Virus record (IMG/VR): IMGVR_UViG_3300049825_000361
Location: 1 to 33,942 of that record
Length of the DNA: 33,942 nucleotides
Reading direction: 5' to 3' (one strand)
Source: a virus
The notes below the pieces were generated by a model that did no database searches, had not been told where the DNA came from, and saw only the letters and a program-made list of their open reading frames with translations. Made by a program: the position numbers and the translations under genes. Every line of letters starts with the position of its first letter. Positions within the stretch are counted from its first letter, which is position 1. Shown piece after piece: positions 16,436 to 33,942 of the stretch.

Positions 16436-16836
16436 AAGTCAATGCCGATGGCCGCCTTCCGATTGGGATGGACAAGACAGATGCATTTGCGCTGTACGCC
16501 ATCTTCCGAGACTTCGCGCGCCAGATCAACGCCCTGACCGACCACACCATGACCAAAGCAACCCACAGCGCAGCCCTCACAGCGGATACTCTGGTGAGGA
16601 CCGGTGCCTCAACTTACCGAGGGTTCACGGTAACCACCGTGACCGCTGTCGGCCTGATTGACATCAGAGATGGGGTTGCTGCTGGCGGAGGTGTGATAAT
16701 CGACACGATCCCAGTGGGAACGGCGGCCGGAACGCGGGTGGAAAAGCAAGTCGGTGTAACCTGCGAAAACGGCATCTTTGTCGATTTCGCAGCCGGGACG
16801 ACCGGAACAGTAAACATTCTTTACGAGGGCGAGTGA
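16432..16836 (+). CDS. Hypothetical tail-associated protein (GTG start)
   Basis: A 134-residue protein starting at GTG 16432 in a GTGA overlap. A short helix (TDAFALYAIFRDFARQINAL) is followed by a beta-rich Gly/Val/Thr domain ending TGTVNILYEGE. This helix-plus-beta layout is common in small fibre or appendage proteins. No family recognised. Confidence 0.65.
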   Translation: MKVNADGRLPIGMDKTDAFALYAIFRDFARQINALTDHTMTKATHSAALTADTLVRTGASTYRGFTVTTVTAVGLIDIRDGVAAGGGVIIDTIPVGTAAGTRVEKQVGVTCENGIFVDFAAGTTGTVNILYEGE

Positions 16837-25564: not shown

Positions 25565-26115
25565 TCGGCTGGTTACTCAAAGTCGTGCCATGGTGGGGCT
25601 ATGTAGCCGCAGGAGCGCTCGCAGTGACCCTACTGACAGGCTACCACCTCAGTGCAATCTCACAAGCCAAGAAGGCTGGCATTGCACAAGACAAAGCCCG
25701 AAGCGACGGCGTGATCGCCAAGATGGTCACCCAGCACAGCGAAGCGCTAGGAGCTGCAAACGCCAAGACTGACGCCACGAGCGCGATGTTCGAGAAGGTA
25801 AAGCAAGGAGCACAGGATGCACTCAGAACTGCGAACGCAGCGAACGCGAAGATTCGGGCCGCTTTTGCTGCTGTTGTCGGCGAGCGCGATCAGTTGCGCG
25901 ACGAAAGAGCCCGCAGTGCCATCGTTACCGGTGGTGTCCAGGCAAGTGACGATACCGTCACCGCCTGCCGTGAGCGAACCGAAAGAACGTGGTTATCACT
26001 GGAAAAGGCACTGCGCACTAGTCGCGAGTGTGCAGGAGATGCTTCAAACTCCGATGAAGGAATACGAAGTTTGCTCAGAGCTTGGCCTAATCCAATAGTG
26101 GCTGAAGCACCCTAA
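25561..26115 (+). CDS. Rz: i-spanin (Rz-like)
   Basis: A 184-residue inner-membrane spanin with GTG start in a GTGA overlap. One N-terminal membrane helix (WWGYVAAGALAVTLLTGY, about 11-28) is followed by a long periplasmic coiled coil (about 55-120) rich in Ala/Lys/Glu/Asp. It pairs with the o-spanin encoded inside it to fuse inner and outer membranes at lysis. The start of the nested gene lies one frame on. Confidence 0.85.
   Translation: MIGWLLKVVPWWGYVAAGALAVTLLTGYHLSAISQAKKAGIAQDKARSDGVIAKMVTQHSEALGAANAKTDATSAMFEKVKQGAQDALRTANAANAKIRAAFAAVVGERDQLRDERARSAIVTGGVQASDDTVTACRERTERTWLSLEKALRTSRECAGDASNSDEGIRSLLRAWPNPIVAEAP
25817..26098 (+). CDS. Rz1: o-spanin lipoprotein (Rz1-like), nested in Rz
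   Basis: A 93-residue lipoprotein in the +1 frame wholly inside the i-spanin gene, the classic nested arrangement. A short basic N-terminus is followed by LLLLLSASAISC, with the lipobox Cys at 27, and then a Pro-rich periplasmic segment (PAVPSLPVVSRQ). The C-terminal part (about 60-93) is longer than in lambda Rz1. Its last 20 codons have a diverged copy at 26617-26676 beyond the HNH gene. Confidence 0.85.
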   Translation: MHSELRTQRTRRFGPLLLLLSASAISCATKEPAVPSLPVVSRQVTIPSPPAVSEPKERGYHWKRHCALVASVQEMLQTPMKEYEVCSELGLIQ

Positions 26116-26603
26116 AGAGTGTTACCTACATGAATCGCGCGCTTTTCCTTAAGGTAAGCTGCGTAGGCTTTTTCCTTGGTGCTATGTAAACCCAAATGGC
26201 GTTTGCATCCATCGAGAGAAATTGATGCTTGCCATAGGTTCGATGCAGAGTGGAACGTCACACCAAGCAAACCAGACGATTGATTGTCACTCCGCGCTTT
26301 CTTGAGGTTGTGGTGATTCAATCCGCCAGGTGCTTCTCGAAGATTGCAGATTCTGTTGTCTGACCGGTCTCCGTTTATGTGGTCGAGGAGTGGTGAAGGC
26401 AACACGCCGTAGAAGTGCATCCATGCCAAACGATGCGCGTAATAGCGTCCACCACATATCCCGATAAGGCGATAGCCATCGGCTCTGACAGTGCCTGCCA
26501 AAGTCCCGAGACGTGCAGTACCGCCGCGTGCAACTTTCCACAGCAGTGATCCGGACTCAAATTCGTACTCAAGCAATTCTCTGACGTGCTCAGGTGTGAG
26601 CAT
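26112..26603 (-). CDS. HNH homing endonuclease with AP2 domain, second copy
   Basis: A 163-residue paralogue of the gene at 22377-22877, also antisense to the late operon. AGGA lies seven bases before ATG 26603. HNH core: YAHRLAWM at 55-62, LDHINGDRSDNR at 73-84, NLRE at 87-90. The AP2-type domain spans about 113-157. The stop lies four bases inside the i-spanin gene end. It separates the intact o-spanin end on the left from a remnant o-spanin end on the right. Confidence 0.9.
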   Translation of the reverse strand: MLTPEHVRELLEYEFESGSLLWKVARGGTARLGTLAGTVRADGYRLIGICGGRYYAHRLAWMHFYGVLPSPLLDHINGDRSDNRICNLREAPGGLNHHNLKKARSDNQSSGLLGVTFHSASNLWQASISLDGCKRHLGLHSTKEKAYAAYLKEKRAIHVGNTL

Positions 26604-27410: not shown

Positions 27411-28001
27411 TCAAAACCCCATGCCCTGCTGTTCAGCCACCGGGGCGGCTTCTTCGTCCAGCAGGGAACCTTGCGCCTGCGCTTGCCGTATGCGCTCGCA
27501 GGCAATGTCGAAGTAGGAGCGTTCACGCTCAATGCCGATGAACTCGCGCCCTTGCTGCACGGCTGCAACGCCAGTCGTTCCGCTGCCCATGAATGGGTCT
27601 AACACCGTCTCGCCGCGCCTGGTCGTCAGCGCCACAAGCCAGCGCATCCAGCCCACCGGCTTGGGCACCGGATGGCCGTTCTTCTCGGCCGTCTCGTTGC
27701 TGGCAATCACGGTCGGGTAGTGCGCGCCCTTGTGCAAGTCCGGGTAGGTGCCGTACAGCAGCACCGGCAGGAAGTTCTTAAAACCCCACTGGTGGCGCCC
27801 GGTCGCAGCGGAGCAGTACACGCCGCCCAGCGCGTCAAACTTCGGCAGTTCGTGAATATGGGGGCCAATGAACACAGCGGCGCGTCCGGTCAGTTGCATA
27901 GCTTGCGTCAGGGCTGGCACCACCTCGGCCACGTAGTTCGCGTAGGTGTCGGCATAGCTGGCATAGGCTTGCAGTTGCAGCCCGTGCGCGCGCCCATGCA
28001 A
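27411..28001 (-). pseudogene. 5'-truncated DNA methyltransferase (N4/N6 class)
   Basis: The frame can start at TTG 28001, directly after the stop of the upstream gene. The remaining 196 residues carry the AdoMet motif DPFMGSGTTGVAA and the following IGIERERSYFDIACERI, plus YASYADTYANYV, which normally comes just after the catalytic SPPY/DPPY motif. That catalytic motif is absent, so the N-terminus is lost and the protein should be inactive as a methylase. The stop is two bases from attC 2. A TTG-initiated fragment may still be made. Confidence 0.7.
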
Positions 28002-30524: not shown

Positions 30525-30525
30525 C

Positions 30526-30539
30526 TAGGGCAAACCCTA
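30526..30539. promoter_or_regulatory. Early operator-like dyad 1
   Basis: TAGGG, CAAA, CCCTA on the plus strand, i.e. TAGGGTTTGCCCTA on the minus strand, one base upstream of the leftward -35. The same 14-base element with one base changed sits at 31248-31261 beside the rightward promoter. Confidence 0.7.
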
Positions 30540-30550
30540 ATGGACGGGGC

Positions 30551-30580
30551 TTGACAAGCCGAATTGTTCGGTTCTATCAT
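30551..30580 (+). promoter_or_regulatory. Promoter of ncRNA 1
   Basis: TTGACA (30551-30556), an 18-base spacer and TATCAT (30575-30580), followed by TGCTCTGTC. The other RNA promoter (33586-33615) has the same -35, the same 18-base spacer, TATGAT, and the same TGCTCTGTC. The transcript should begin near 30587. Confidence 0.75.
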
Positions 30581-30586
30581 TGCTCT

Positions 30587-30950
30587 GTCGTTGGCTGGCC
30601 CTGACGGTGAATGCAGAACCCACAGCGTTTTGCATCCAACCCCTAAGACGGGTGAAGCGGGGCCAGCCGCTGGGTGCACAAACGCTGTGGGTTTTGTGCG
30701 TTCTGGGAGTCGGTTTTGTGGTGGTGCGGTTCGGAAGGACGGACGTGCACGAATTCGCTGGGACTGGGCGTATCCCATTCCGTGCTGATGCTGTTACGGG
30801 CTCGCGACCGTAATGATTCGGCAAACCCCAGCAGCAGGTGTCGAGCCCTGCCGCCACCACAAAACCGATTGGGTTTGGGGTGTTTTGATGGTGGTGCAGG
30901 ACAGAAGAAAGGCTGAGCGCTTGCTGAGTCTTCAGCCTTTCTTCTTCCTT
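30587..30950 (+). ncRNA. Structured ncRNA 1 with loop-loop (kissing) interactions
   Basis: Hairpin I: stem 30587-30591/30604-30608 (two wobbles). II: ATGCA 30611-30615/TGCAT 30631-30635. III: AGCGG 30656-30660/CCGCT 30667-30671. IV: GCACAAA 30676-30682/TTTGTGC 30693-30699. Loop I CTGGCC pairs loop III GGCCAG (30661-30666). Loop II ACCCACAGCG pairs loop IV CGCTGTGGGT perfectly. A 14-base closing stem runs 30711-30724/30854-30867. Inside it the loop GCTCGCGA (30800-30807) pairs by GCTCG with CGAGC of the loop at 30839-30846. A terminator follows. No convincing ORF lies within. Confidence 0.8.
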
Positions 30951-30952
30951 TT
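30903..30952 (+). terminator. Terminator of ncRNA 1
   Basis: AGAAGAAAGGCTGA (30903-30916) and TCAGCCTTTCTTCT (30932-30945) form a perfect 14-base-pair stem with a 15-base loop, followed by a pyrimidine tail. It gives a transcript of about 360 bases. The U-run is broken by Cs, so strength is uncertain. Confidence 0.7.
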
Positions 30953-31247
30953 CTTTCTTCGTTTCCGGAGCGTTACCGGTAATTCCAACCAAGCAAAGTT
31001 CTTGGGGGGTAAGGGGGGTTTGGTTCAGTTCGGTTTCCTTGGTTCTTTCAGGGAATAACCCTGAACGAATCGATTCCTCCTGGGTACTCTGGGAGGGTGT
31101 TTTGATGGATTGTGTAGGTGACGCCTGTAACAGCAGGACACATGCCAAGGCAACAAGCGCGGTAGGTCTGTTGAAGTCCGCTGAGCCCCATGCTACCTAG
31201 ACAATCCTTCACAGCACCTTCCGGGCGAAGGGCTATTTGAACTGACC
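30953..31247. other. Noncoding gap before rightward operon
   Basis: About 300 bases without a credible gene. It holds TTCAGGG/CCCTGAA (31047-31065, five-base loop), a G-rich tract near 31000-31020 and a weak CCTCC/GGAGG hairpin (31076-31096). Antisense frames here have no ribosome site. Confidence 0.5.
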
Positions 31248-31261
31248 TAGGGTTTCCCCTA
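31248..31261. promoter_or_regulatory. Early operator-like dyad 2
   Basis: TAGGG, TTTC, CCCTA on the plus strand, i.e. TAGGGTTTCCCCTA. It matches the minus-strand dyad 1 (TAGGGTTTGCCCTA) at 13 of 14 positions and lies one base before the -35 candidate of the rightward promoter, mirroring dyad 1. Confidence 0.7.
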
Positions 31262-31262
31262 A

Positions 31263-31290
31263 TTGCAAGCCCTTGACGAAGCCATAAAGT
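31263..31290 (+). promoter_or_regulatory. Rightward early promoter
   Basis: TTGCAA (31263-31268), a 16-base spacer and TAAAGT (31285-31290). The geometry copies the leftward promoter. TTGACG at 31273-31278 is a second -35 candidate but has no good -10. The start would be near 31297, 18 bases before the first ATG. Confidence 0.5.
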
Positions 31291-31314
31291 AGCAGCATCG
31301 ATCAAGGAGCAATC

Positions 31315-31536
31315 ATGACCGACAAGCAGCACTCAGAAGCTCTGATCCATCACAGAGCAGCGCTCGCAGCCAAGTTTGCCAAAGTCATGGCCGACTGCCG
31401 GCGCGAAGATGAGAGAGACGCAGCAGCTCATGCTGTGCTCATCGAATGCGGGAACTGCGAGGGCTCCGGGATTGGCCGGCTGTTCAGCGCCTGCATCAGT
31501 TGCCGCGGGAGTGGAGTGATTGAGGAGGAAGAATGA
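31315..31536 (+). CDS. Small DnaJ-type zinc-finger protein
   Basis: A 73-residue protein with AAGGAG six bases before ATG 31315. Two CxxCxGxG motifs are present (CGNCEGSG about 45-52, CISCRGSG about 60-67), as in DnaJ zinc fingers and many small phage proteins. A helical N-terminus and acidic tail flank them. It overlaps the next gene as ATGA. Possibly a host-interaction protein. Confidence 0.75.
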   Translation: MTDKQHSEALIHHRAALAAKFAKVMADCRREDERDAAAHAVLIECGNCEGSGIGRLFSACISCRGSGVIEEEE

Positions 31537-31835
31537 AACATACACCAGGGCCGTGGCATCGCGGGGATGGCGAGCATTGGTGCCGCGAGATTCGCGGGCA
31601 TGACGGGACTGGCGTTGCATGGTGCGGCCACTTCCCGTTCGATGCTGACGCTCGCCTCATCGCCGCCGCACCTAAAATGCTCAAAACATTGAAACATCTA
31701 GCTGCAAACTGTCTAAAAATGCGCGCATTCGAACATGATGTTCGGCAGGTGATCGGCAATACGAATTGGCAAGTTCTTGACGATTATGTGTCGGAAGCCT
31801 ACGTGGTCATTGCCGAAGCAGAGGGGAAGTCATGA
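31533..31835 (+). CDS. Phage early protein with HTPGPW / DARLIAAAPKM motifs
   Basis: A 100-residue protein beginning MKHTPGPWHRG, with DADARLIAAAPKMLKTLK in the middle, a pattern very common in small early proteins of many phages. Function is not known for the family. It is ATGA-coupled on both sides. Confidence 0.75.
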   Translation: MKHTPGPWHRGDGEHWCREIRGHDGTGVAWCGHFPFDADARLIAAAPKMLKTLKHLAANCLKMRAFEHDVRQVIGNTNWQVLDDYVSEAYVVIAEAEGKS

Positions 31836-31921
31836 CTGTTTCGGTAACTCTGTCCAAGCCGATCCCACTCGCTCTGTATGCCGGGGTTGATGGATCGGAG
31901 AGAGGGAAAAGTGATGGCTAG
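31832..31921 (+). CDS. 29-residue peptide
   Basis: ATG 31832 overlaps the previous stop as ATGA and reads MTVSVTLSKPIPLALYAGVD then stops at TAG 31919-31921, eight bases inside the next gene. Tight overlap is the only support. It may be a coupling peptide. Confidence 0.45.
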   Translation: MTVSVTLSKPIPLALYAGVDGSERGKSDG

Positions 31922-32162
31922 ACACTGGCGCACACTTCTACCGAAGCACGACTTTATGTCACTTCCAAGGCACGACCCGTTGACGTTTGAGCATGCACGC
32001 TTCCCGTATGAAAGCGCAAGCCCTGCTGACTACGCCAAGAGCACAGAGGTTCACGAGCCCATCGACGGGGCAAACCCTTGGTGGACGATTTCCACTGTAC
32101 TGGCTGCTTTGTCGGCAATTGGTGTTGTTGGAATGCTCATCATCGAAGGTGTGACGAAATGA
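31914..32162 (+). CDS. Small membrane protein
   Basis: An 82-residue protein from ATG 31914 (AGAGGG upstream), preferred over a longer version starting at 31878. The soluble N-terminal part (DFMSLPRHDPLTFEHARFPY) ends in one C-terminal membrane helix (WWTISTVLAALSAIGVVGML). Function unknown. Confidence 0.65.
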   Translation: MARHWRTLLPKHDFMSLPRHDPLTFEHARFPYESASPADYAKSTEVHEPIDGANPWWTISTVLAALSAIGVVGMLIIEGVTK

Positions 32163-32184
32163 ACCGCGCGAGAAGAACATAAGG

Positions 32185-32475
32185 ATGCGCCGCGCCATGG
32201 ATGAAATGCAGATGGCTCCTAGGACGCCAGAGCAAATTGCGGAATTGCAGCGCCAATCAATGAATGCCAGTATGAACACTGGCCATGACGGGCTTGCTGC
32301 GCGCAACGGATGGCCTCCGCGCCCATTTGAGGGCGTGCGAATCCATCCGGGAAGCGACTTCGCCGACACCGAGCCCGCAGCACCACCCGGTAGCGAAGGA
32401 CGTTTGATTGTGCTTGCTGCTGTGATTGGGGTGGTTGTCCTCGTTATTCTGGGAGTGTGGCATGCGTACTTCTGA
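32185..32475 (+). CDS. Small membrane protein
   Basis: A 96-residue protein with an amphipathic N-terminus (TPEQIAELQRQSMNASMN), an acidic Pro-rich middle and a C-terminal membrane helix (RLIVLAAVIGVVVLVILGVW). ATG 32185 is used; 32197 is an alternative. It overlaps the next gene by 14 bases. Confidence 0.65.
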   Translation: MRRAMDEMQMAPRTPEQIAELQRQSMNASMNTGHDGLAARNGWPPRPFEGVRIHPGSDFADTEPAAPPGSEGRLIVLAAVIGVVVLVILGVWHAYF

Positions 32476-32668
32476 GCGGTTGAAATATTCCGCACTTTAC
32501 AAACGCGGTGGGGCTCGCCTGGGCGCATGGTTCGCATGGGCTTATGACAGTGACGCTTTCAAGTTCGCTTTTGACACTTTGATGCCGGAAAACCTGCCCG
32601 CTTTCCACACTGCTGAAGATACCGAGCGCAGGATGTTCCTTCTCTTTTGTGCGGAGGCTTACGAATGA
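32462..32668 (+). CDS. Hypothetical early protein
   Basis: A 68-residue protein from ATG 32462 (MRTSERLKYSALYKRGGARL), an aromatic and charged helical protein. An upstream in-frame ATG at 32426 lies inside the previous gene and is less likely. It ends in an ATGA overlap. Confidence 0.6.
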   Translation: MRTSERLKYSALYKRGGARLGAWFAWAYDSDAFKFAFDTLMPENLPAFHTAEDTERRMFLLFCAEAYE

Positions 32669-32796
32669 CCACCTGGTACGTTGCACACAGCCGCAAGCAG
32701 CTCTGGCTTCTCTACCGTTTGATTCGTCGCACACGCGGCCCTATCGCTAGCCTGGTGGCGCTTTGGCGTTACTGGCGTGCTCCGCTGAAGTTTTGA
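32665..32796 (+). CDS. Small basic membrane-associated protein
   Basis: A 43-residue basic, Trp/Leu/Arg-rich peptide (WYVAHSRKQLWLLYRLIRRT) starting in an ATGA overlap. It probably lies on or in the membrane. Its stop overlaps the next ATG by one base. Confidence 0.55.
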   Translation: MTTWYVAHSRKQLWLLYRLIRRTRGPIASLVALWRYWRAPLKF

Positions 32797-32888
32797 TGCT
32801 GTTCATGGCGTTGGCGATCTTGCTCTTTGCCTTCGGGCATTGGGGCTGGGCACTGTTTGCCCTGTTGATCGCGGTTATGGAATCCTGA
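32796..32888 (+). CDS. 30-residue membrane peptide
   Basis: Reads MLFMALAILLFAFGHWGWAL then FALLIAVMES, one continuous membrane helix. It begins inside the stop of the gene before (TGATG). Such short hydrophobic peptides in early phage operons often act on host membrane proteins. That role is inference. Confidence 0.55.
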   Translation: MLFMALAILLFAFGHWGWALFALLIAVMES

Positions 32889-32944
32889 ACAGGCTCTGGA
32901 TGCTGGCCTGAATCAACAGCACCGACAACTCGCAAGGACTCTCC

Positions 32945-33361
32945 ATGCCAAACATCAACCAGATGATGCCTTCCAAGTACCTCAAGAAAGAGGACTTTCC
33001 GCAACCCGCACTCGTCACTATCCGCAATCTCAAACAGGACATGGTCGCAGGACAGCAAGGGAAACCAGACGAAAAACTGTGGATCATGTATTTCGAGGAA
33101 CTCGAACAGGGACTTGTCATGAAATCCACGAATCTGCAACTCGCTGCAATGGCGCTTGGTAGTGAGGATACAGACGACTGGATCGGCAAACAGATTGTGA
33201 TCTTCGCCGACCCGAATGTATCTTTCGGGACAAAACTGGTTGGCGGTTTGCGGCTCAGGGCCGTTCGACGCAAACAGCCTGAACCTGTCACCCCAAAGCG
33301 TATCGCTCCACGCGACGATGAACCCGGATCGCTTGGCGGAGAGTTTGACGAGCAATATTGA
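32945..33361 (+). CDS. Hypothetical early protein (OB-fold-like, DNA-transaction candidate)
   Basis: A 138-residue protein of a type common in phages (INQMMPSKYLKKEDFPQPAL, ... WIMYFEELEQGLVMKSTNLQ, ... DDWIGKQIVIFADPNVSFG). A beta-rich core and basic C-terminus recall small OB-fold proteins, but I cannot name a function. It has its own 56-base leader. Confidence 0.7.
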   Translation: MPNINQMMPSKYLKKEDFPQPALVTIRNLKQDMVAGQQGKPDEKLWIMYFEELEQGLVMKSTNLQLAAMALGSEDTDDWIGKQIVIFADPNVSFGTKLVGGLRLRAVRRKQPEPVTPKRIAPRDDEPGSLGGEFDEQY

Positions 33362-33364
33362 TTC

Positions 33365-33589
33365 ATGAAGCCTCTACCTGACCTGCAAGATGTAGAGGCC
33401 ATGGCGGCCATAGGGCGAGTTTCGGCTCTGTGGTCTGCCAGGAATCAAACGCTGGAGCAATTGCGCGACAAACTCACTGCGATGAATTCGGCCCAGTTCG
33501 GCCCGGAACTGGAGAAACTATCAACGGAAGCGATTGCACTGTGTGCTCGACTGAATCAGATTGCGCTGATGTGGGCGAAAAGTGCTTGA
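33365..33589 (+). CDS. Hypothetical early protein
   Basis: A 74-residue helical protein (DVEAMAAIGRVSALWSARNQ, then EQLRDKLTAMNSAQ). It lies four bases after the gene before. Its stop codon lies inside the -35 of the ncRNA 2 promoter. Function unknown. Confidence 0.65.
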   Translation: MKPLPDLQDVEAMAAIGRVSALWSARNQTLEQLRDKLTAMNSAQFGPELEKLSTEAIALCARLNQIALMWAKSA

Positions 33590-33615
33590 CAACTGAGAAA
33601 GTGTCGATTTATGAT
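33586..33615 (+). promoter_or_regulatory. Promoter of ncRNA 2
   Basis: TTGACA (33586-33591), an 18-base spacer and TATGAT (33610-33615), followed by TGCTCTGTC. It is the twin of the ncRNA 1 promoter. The start should be near 33622. Confidence 0.8.
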
Positions 33616-33621
33616 TGCTCT

Positions 33622-33942
33622 GTCATCGCGCACACGATGGAAGATTTCGAGGCCCCTAGCCTCGGCTTCAAGCCCTTAGATGGGAACCGATGTGTGCGCA
33701 TCGGGGAGCCGATACTAGGGGCTTCGGCTCGTTCTGGGGTTCGTTTGGACGACTGCGGCGAACCGACAAAGCCAGCAGCAGGGTTAAGCTGGATGACGGG
33801 TTTTAGCGTAATGCGGCGAAGACAACTCGAACAGGGTTAGCTTCGCTTCGCCCGCTCAACCGCTCACCAAGAAGCTGAGCATTGAAGAACAGATACAAAG
33901 TCAAGCGGGTGCGAATCCCGCCCTGCGGCCCACCAGGCCCTG
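33622..33942 (+). ncRNA. Structured ncRNA 2, same architecture, runs off the window
   Basis: Hairpin I: CATCG/CGATG (33624-33639), loop CGCACA. II: CGAGG/CCTCG (33648-33664), loop CCCCTAG. III: CCGATG/CATCGG (33687-33704), loop TGTGCG. IV: GAGCCGA/TCGGCTC (33706-33730), loop containing CTAGGGG. Loops I-III and II-IV are perfectly complementary, as in ncRNA 1 but with other sequences. A third pair is TTCGC in the loop 33842-33853 with GCGAA in the T-arm-like loop 33910-33916. It shares CAAGCCCTTAGATGGG and GTTCTGGG with ncRNA 1. The 3' end is not in the window. Confidence 0.8.

Follow-up and report, generated by a model that had tools for sequence, protein, structure and literature searches.

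A probable new family of structured phage RNAs with covarying loop pairs and a conserved 3′ core

Two related RNA elements in a phage genome fragment

The IMG/VR record IMGVR_UViG_3300049825_000361, which was analyzed over its whole length of 33,942 bases (hereafter the window), belongs to a phage with an SU10-type portal and terminase large subunit and carries two similar structured RNA elements, copy 1 and copy 2. Since the left end of the window falls inside a terminase small subunit gene (this end matches locus L012), the record is a fragment. Copy 1 stands 5′ of a gene cluster at 31315-33589, on whose strand a simple scan found no promoter-like site, and two terminator-like hairpins (30903-30945 and 31075-31097) lie between copy 1 and the cluster. 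Copy 2 follows the cluster at the end of the record, where it would probably precede the terminase operon; the -35 box of its promoter shares bases with the stop codon of the gene before it.

An earlier note on the window had proposed that both elements follow a promoter and share four hairpins, I to IV, in the same order and spacing, with loop I complementary to loop III and loop II to loop IV. All of this was recovered. Both copies have a sigma-70-like promoter upstream, and hairpins I to IV start at 30585, 30612, 30656 and 30676 in copy 1 and at 33624, 33648, 33687 and 33706 in copy 2, so that the spacings differ by no more than 2 bases from those given in the note. Complementarity between the loops is exact in both copies (CTGGCC/GGCCAG and ACCCACAGCG/CGCTGTGGGT in copy 1; CGCACA/TGTGCG and CCCCTAG/CTAGGGG in copy 2). 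The parts of both elements are listed in Table 1.

We searched for this architecture with a descriptor requiring four hairpins in order, with loops I-III and II-IV each complementary over at least 7 base pairs (bp), within 170 nucleotides (nt). On the + strand of the window only the sites of copy 1 and copy 2 matched, and on the - strand only the mirror of copy 2, as expected from symmetry. In shuffled sequence there were 7 matches in 959 kb, equal to about 0.5 in 68 kb or one in about 137 kb, and these were weaker. As evidence beyond chance the window alone is suggestive, and homologues were needed because a single site is not overwhelming against the rate in shuffled sequence. Two sites with common flanking sequence, together with the same architecture in independently found homologues, are overwhelming. 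A fuller descriptor gave eight family members scores of 25.5-33.0, whereas scores in 1.07 Mb of shuffled sequence peaked at 22.5; three unrelated sites in real sequence also reached 25-27.5. A descriptor scan of 2.1 Mb found no additional 5′ domains.

Homologues in phage contigs from metagenomes

A search for relatives of the terminase led to locus L031, where 53 nt of the non-coding region are 89% identical to copy 2, and motifs conserved between copy 2 and L031 were then used to reach further members. This gave 12 distinct loci besides the window (L031, L079, L080, L081, L085, L086, L087, L089, L090, L107, L108 and L126), all of them on phage contigs from metagenomes (IMG/VR); L083 carries the same RNA as L031. 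The 5′ domain that holds the four hairpins is kept in 10 of the 11 homologous loci first found, the exception being L108, while the twelfth locus, L126, was recovered later through a conserved 3′ core alone (see below).

Exact patterns did not reach the family: a promoter followed by GCTCTGTC, taken from both copies, found no homologue, and CCCTWAGAYGGG..GTTCTGGG gave 5 chance matches, one of them in a levivirus-like coat gene, and no homologue. GenBank phages yielded no homologues in distant blastn searches with the window region and with four other members, and a plasmid search found none either. The core motif, searched in 84,980 prokaryote species (bacteria and archaea, one genome each), gave 14 matches, none with neighboring core motifs. 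The core model found no new member in whole related records, the 66 relatives found through terminase contained no core RNA except that of L031, and no Rfam 15 family matched. Thus, the family is undescribed in Rfam 15 and in the annotated phage collection searched, and is an unnamed new family among structured phage RNAs.

Two sets of weak matches were set aside along the way. Weak blastn matches to PhiW-14 and Pluto were inspected and dropped, and Rfam matches to mir-207 and mir-577 at 30886-30962, which correspond to the terminator-like hairpin after copy 1, were dismissed as chance.

Loop pairing is kept while loop sequences differ

We compared the pairing of each RNA's own loops with that obtained with the loops of other members in a swap test of 12 RNAs, for which the hairpins of the 5′ domain were delimited, and the loops read, by hand. 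Own loops paired over a mean of 6.33 bp for I-III versus 2.80 bp for other members' loops, and over 6.42 bp versus 3.37 bp for II-IV, values reached in 0 of 20,000 permutations in either case; the control pairings I-IV and II-III showed no excess. Complementarity of at least 6 bp between the loops of hairpins I and III, named P1 and P4 from here on, occurs in unrelated sequences in nine members and in L126. L126 was read after the rule had been set; both of its pairings are intact (GCAGCCAC/GTGGCTGC and AAGCCTTGAG/CTCAAGGCTT), though its P1 stem is weak. The swap test and L126 thus bear out the proposal that the pairing is conserved and the sequence is not, which the earlier note had staked on homologues keeping the complementarity. 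We conclude that the two sites almost certainly belong to a real RNA family, and that a loop-loop kiss between P1 and P4 is very likely. The P1-P4 loop pair would then be a natural tertiary contact in which selection acts on pairing and not on sequence.

The arms of hairpins II and IV form a predicted nested stem

Both loop pairings had been taken to be interleaved kisses. The I-III kiss stands, but the II-IV pairing is better described as a long-range nested stem, P2, which had been overlooked: in the minimum free energy (MFE) structure of each of the 12 members that were folded, the arms of hairpins II and IV join in one stem, and this stem beats the local hairpins by about 8-35 kcal/mol in every member. 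Furthermore, the duplex energy of the arms averaged -42.8 kcal/mol for own arms compared to -23.2 kcal/mol for cross pairs. Folding thus makes a nested P2 likely, and because the II and IV arms nest in this manner, II-IV would be an ordinary helix and I-III a single loop-loop kiss. The block CAA(C/G)CCCT(A/T)AGA(C/T)GGG, shared by both copies and previously thought to be unpaired, instead forms a small hairpin, P3, through CCC(T/A)..GGG (often CCCCGAAAGGGG). In the resulting model, P3 and P4 would cap P2 as a junction, and the P1-P4 kiss would reach along P2 from its foot to the opposite end. The P1 stem, kiss and P4 stem together comprise 15-19 bp versus 19-25 bp for P2, and since these lengths are close, side-by-side packing is possible.

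In each member, nevertheless, the local hairpins II and IV exceed shuffled sequence in stability (z from -0.2 to -5.1), and the element that comes after P2 is a repeat of the inner helix's upstream partner, as with TGCGTTCC and TGCGTTTC in L107. Both observations would suit a switch, in which the four-hairpin double-kissing fold alternates with the nested stem and the inner P2 3′ strand pairs with either its upstream or its downstream partner. However, the energy difference favors the nested stem in all members, most of the local hairpins are not individually significant, and the members compared are related to each other. We regard such a switch as unlikely.

The 10-mer ACCCACAGCG, from a P2 strand of copy 1, is found once more in the window, at 16561 within a coding region (0.03 expected per strand).

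A covarying 3′ core

A 3′ core of about 160 nt is common to eleven members, with a mean column identity of 81%. In the predicted structure of these 11 members 96.3% of cells are paired and 15 pairs show double changes. The covariation score was 0.376, compared to 0.165 +/- 0.013 after shuffling (0 of 500), and shifting the partners abolished the signal. G-U pairs are kept in most members at core columns 18-56, 33-47, 37-43 and 122-156; because they recur on the + strand, they mark the + strand RNA as the functional molecule. The view that the elements form an RNA family thus gained both homologues and a core that covaries as RNA.

The same data bear on the alternative that the sites are DNA elements, such as a cruciform or a recombination or packaging site. 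Loop complementarity exists in DNA as well, and some members adjoin terminase genes. However, promoters lie directly upstream, the G-U pairs of the 3′ core are strand-specific and the core covaries, and the elements are located beside many unlike genes, all of which makes a DNA element highly improbable.

A model of the core scored 138-180 bits in the members used to build it, as it must by construction, and 17.3 bits (E = 0.09) on copy 2. The regions of copy 2 that precede the core align with other members at the invariant ACGAC loop, the hairpin P6, GGTTTTAGCGTAATGCG and the core start. Copy 2 therefore holds remnants of the conserved 3′ domain, which had escaped the earlier note, with about 100 nt of the core missing. 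In copy 1 the core model found no 3′ core, and in L126 the core was established by sequence. With the 3′ core present in most members, the RNA usually reaches about 400 nt, more than had been assumed.

Table 1. Parts of copy 1 and copy 2 and their positions in the window
Feature	Position	Strand	Basis or remark
Copy 1 sigma-70 promoter TTGACA-18-TATCAT	30551..30580	+	11/12 consensus bases
Copy 1 P1 (hairpin I), GGCTGGCC in loop	30585..30607	+	
Copy 1 P2 5′ strand, includes hairpin II	30613..30637	+	MFE nested stem
Copy 1 P3 hairpin CCCCTAAGACGGG (block first taken as unpaired)	30640..30652	+	
Copy 1 P4 (hairpin III), GGCCAG loop pairs with P1 loop	30656..30671	+	
Copy 1 P2 3′ strand, includes hairpin IV	30672..30699	+	MFE nested stem
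Copy 1 element GTTCTGGG after P2	30700..30707	+	similar YTTCTGG in homologues
Copy 1 remainder, long hairpin TCGGTTTTGTGGTGG..CCACCACAAAACCGA	30708..30870	+	fold; conserved 3′ core absent (no core-model match)
Terminator-like hairpin AAGAAAGGCTGA..TTCAGCCTTTCTT and pyrimidine tail, after copy 1	30903..30958	+	
Copy 2 sigma-70 promoter TTGACA-18-TATGAT	33586..33615	+	11/12 consensus bases
Copy 2 P1 (hairpin I), CGCACA loop	33624..33639	+	
Copy 2 P2 5′ strand (hairpin II)	33648..33669	+	MFE nested stem
Copy 2 P3 hairpin CCCTTAGATGGG	33673..33684	+	
Copy 2 P4 (hairpin III), TGTGCG loop pairs with P1 loop	33687..33704	+	
Copy 2 P2 3′ strand (hairpin IV)	33705..33727	+	MFE nested stem
Copy 2 P5 hairpin, invariant ACGAC in loop	33738..33764	+	alignment
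Copy 2 P6 hairpin GCCAGC-AGCAGGGTTAA-GCTGG	33771..33792	+	alignment
Copy 2 shortened 3′ core: GGTTTTAGCGTAATGCGG, then CAGGGTTAGCTTCGCTTCGCC..CTCAACCGCTCACCAAGAAGC	33799..33875	+	blastn to L031, core model, alignments

The RNAs are favored as leaders of operons

The RNA begins shortly after a promoter, and in 9 of the 12 other members the start of a same-strand gene lies no more than about 200 nt from the end of the RNA. The products of these downstream genes are unlike each other and include an Erf-like annealing protein, exonuclease VIII, a replication O-like protein, the terminase small subunit and small unknown proteins. On balance, we favor the explanation that copy 1 and copy 2 belong to a new family of structured, operon-leading phage RNAs with a usual length of about 400 nt. 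Judging from sequence, transcription would start at the strong sigma-70 promoter and yield, in order, P1, a long P2 (about 19-25 bp) capped by the P3/P4 junction, P5 with its invariant ACGAC, P6 and, in most members, the 3′ core. Pairing between the P1 and P4 loops would involve 6-12 bp whose sequence drifts freely, and the stacked P1, kiss and P4 could lie alongside P2 and so lock the 5′ domain. The kiss may then serve as an architectural clamp, with the conserved loops and the 3′ core as the working surface. As the leader of early recombination/replication or terminase operons, the RNA may act in cis on operon expression. By analogy, we tentatively suggest that such cis action would most likely be exerted on the transcribing polymerase, as in the HK022 put RNAs.

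Several observations weigh against an operon-leading family of this kind. Only 13 distinct loci are known, and several of them are closely related. L080, L126 and L108 are without a close same-strand gene start; L079 is without I-III complementarity (2 bp), in L031 and L090 this pairing is 4-5 bp and bulged, and L108 lacks the 5′ domain but keeps the 3′ core. Copy 1, finally, has no core, and a terminator-like hairpin comes after it, an arrangement that fits a stand-alone RNA and an antiterminated leader equally.

At L108:654-1070 the 3′ core is conserved, and unrelated hairpins stand in place of the P1-P4 5′ domain, so that the two domains may be exchangeable modules.

A stand-alone RNA would be an ornate molecule like GOLLD or ROOL, of about 400 nt with its 3′ end near CACCAAGAAGC, that is processed or terminated, acts in trans and builds a multimer through loop-loop pairing between molecules. 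Like those RNAs, members of the family are phage-borne and large and have kissing loops, and as in GOLLD the 3′ domain is conserved next to a variable 5′ domain. The terminator-like hairpin after copy 1 and the unrelated downstream genes would also fit, and own loops match own loops, as self-assembly would require. However, there is no Rfam match to GOLLD or ROOL, and in the window ARAGORN found no tRNA, a location near tRNA islands being a mark of these RNAs. Furthermore, many members have a gene start 20-40 nt after the RNA without a terminator in between, and a self-contained intramolecular fold is available. We therefore give the stand-alone RNA a minor chance. A cis-acting leader is favored over it because the RNA heads different operons, and two RNAs heading two operons recall HK022 putL and putR, which also favors an operon leader.

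Extending the operon-leader explanation, the family could represent a protein-free class of phage RNAs that modify the RNA polymerase of the host. Each major operon would have one such RNA, and each RNA a private kissing-loop pair to lock it. This is a speculation that we hold to be quite unlikely; if true, the private pairs would keep the copies in one genome from misfolding together. Phage RNAs that are both large and structured are few, and what most of them do is unknown. Here, the covarying core, a testable tertiary contact that compensatory swaps could reprogram and the position at the head of operons make a function in transcription control directly testable.

Other features around the RNAs

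Near-palindromes, CTAGGGCAAACCCTAA and CCTAGGGTTTCCCCTAA, occur at 30525-30540 and 31246-31262 and are possible phage repressor operators; the first stands directly upstream of the copy 1 promoter. A similar sequence, GGGTAAACCCTAA, lies at about 1311-1323 of L012, inside a promoter-like stretch. Between the two RNAs, the gene at 32945-33361 belongs to phrog_21613, a phage family of unknown function, and in L087 an apparent relative, judged by eye, comes after the RNA and an exonuclease VIII gene. Beyond copy 2, GCGGGTGCGAATCCCGCCCTGCGGCCCACCA at 33905-33935 resembles the 3′ end of a tRNA (T arm and CCA); ARAGORN calls no tRNA there, and it could be an attachment site. Short tandem repeats (GCCCAACTTGCCCAACTT...) lie at 45-150, in the gap that separates the terminase small subunit gene from the large subunit gene. 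On the minus strand, opposite to most genes, are an HNH endonuclease gene and a partial N6/N4 DNA methylase gene (26112-26603 and 27411-28001, respectively).

Comparison with known systems

GOLLD has kissing loops, and its 3′ domain is conserved whereas its 5′ domain varies (PMC12286853). The reminiscence of GOLLD and ROOL raised in the earlier note holds as to style, these being large phage or prophage RNAs with kissing loops, but does not extend to membership in any Rfam family. The new family is smaller and shows no sequence or covariance match: the GOLLD and ROOL covariance models gave no match at the gathering score and nothing relevant at E values up to 5.

The specificity loops of phage C4 RNAs are variable (PMC5320573). 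C4 of phage P1 resembles the new family in having short complementary loop pairs of variable specificity within one phage leader, which raises the alternative of a C4-like immunity RNA, whose antisense loops would pair both with target hairpins of their own leader and with a second, translated target. The C4 and c4-a1b1 models gave as their best result a weak c4-a1b1 match in L031 (16.6 bits, E = 1.9; gathering score 46.7), whereas the C4 of phage P1, used as a positive control, was readily found (68.8 bits for C4 and 51.0 bits for c4-a1b1). The order in phage P1, a1 b1 b′ a′ with a′ unpaired, is nested and involves second targets, whereas the order here is interleaved and the RNA is much larger. 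In addition, neither the window nor the loci searched contained a second, paired set of the loop I and loop II sequences that would correspond to a target pair a2/b2. An immunity RNA of the C4 type thus has very little probability.

The packaging RNA of phi29 is a phage RNA with two mutually complementary loops. The new family is like it in its complementary loop pair and in that some members adjoin terminase, and unlike it in that many members sit in replication/recombination regions; the two are likened by description only.

HK022 carries two put RNAs of about 70 nt, each with two stem-loops, downstream of two early promoters (PMC9378689). Their two-stem fold of about 70 nt was not found in the new family, whose fold is different and larger, as a kissing loop and a 3′ core bring the RNA to a usual length of about 400 nt. 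In position, however, the two systems agree: the new RNAs follow a promoter where an operon starts, and 9 of the 12 other members have a same-strand gene start close by. Like the new RNAs, putL and putR are structured phage leader RNAs that follow promoters, two per genome at two operons, and they act without protein, which by analogy may be counted as a further likeness.

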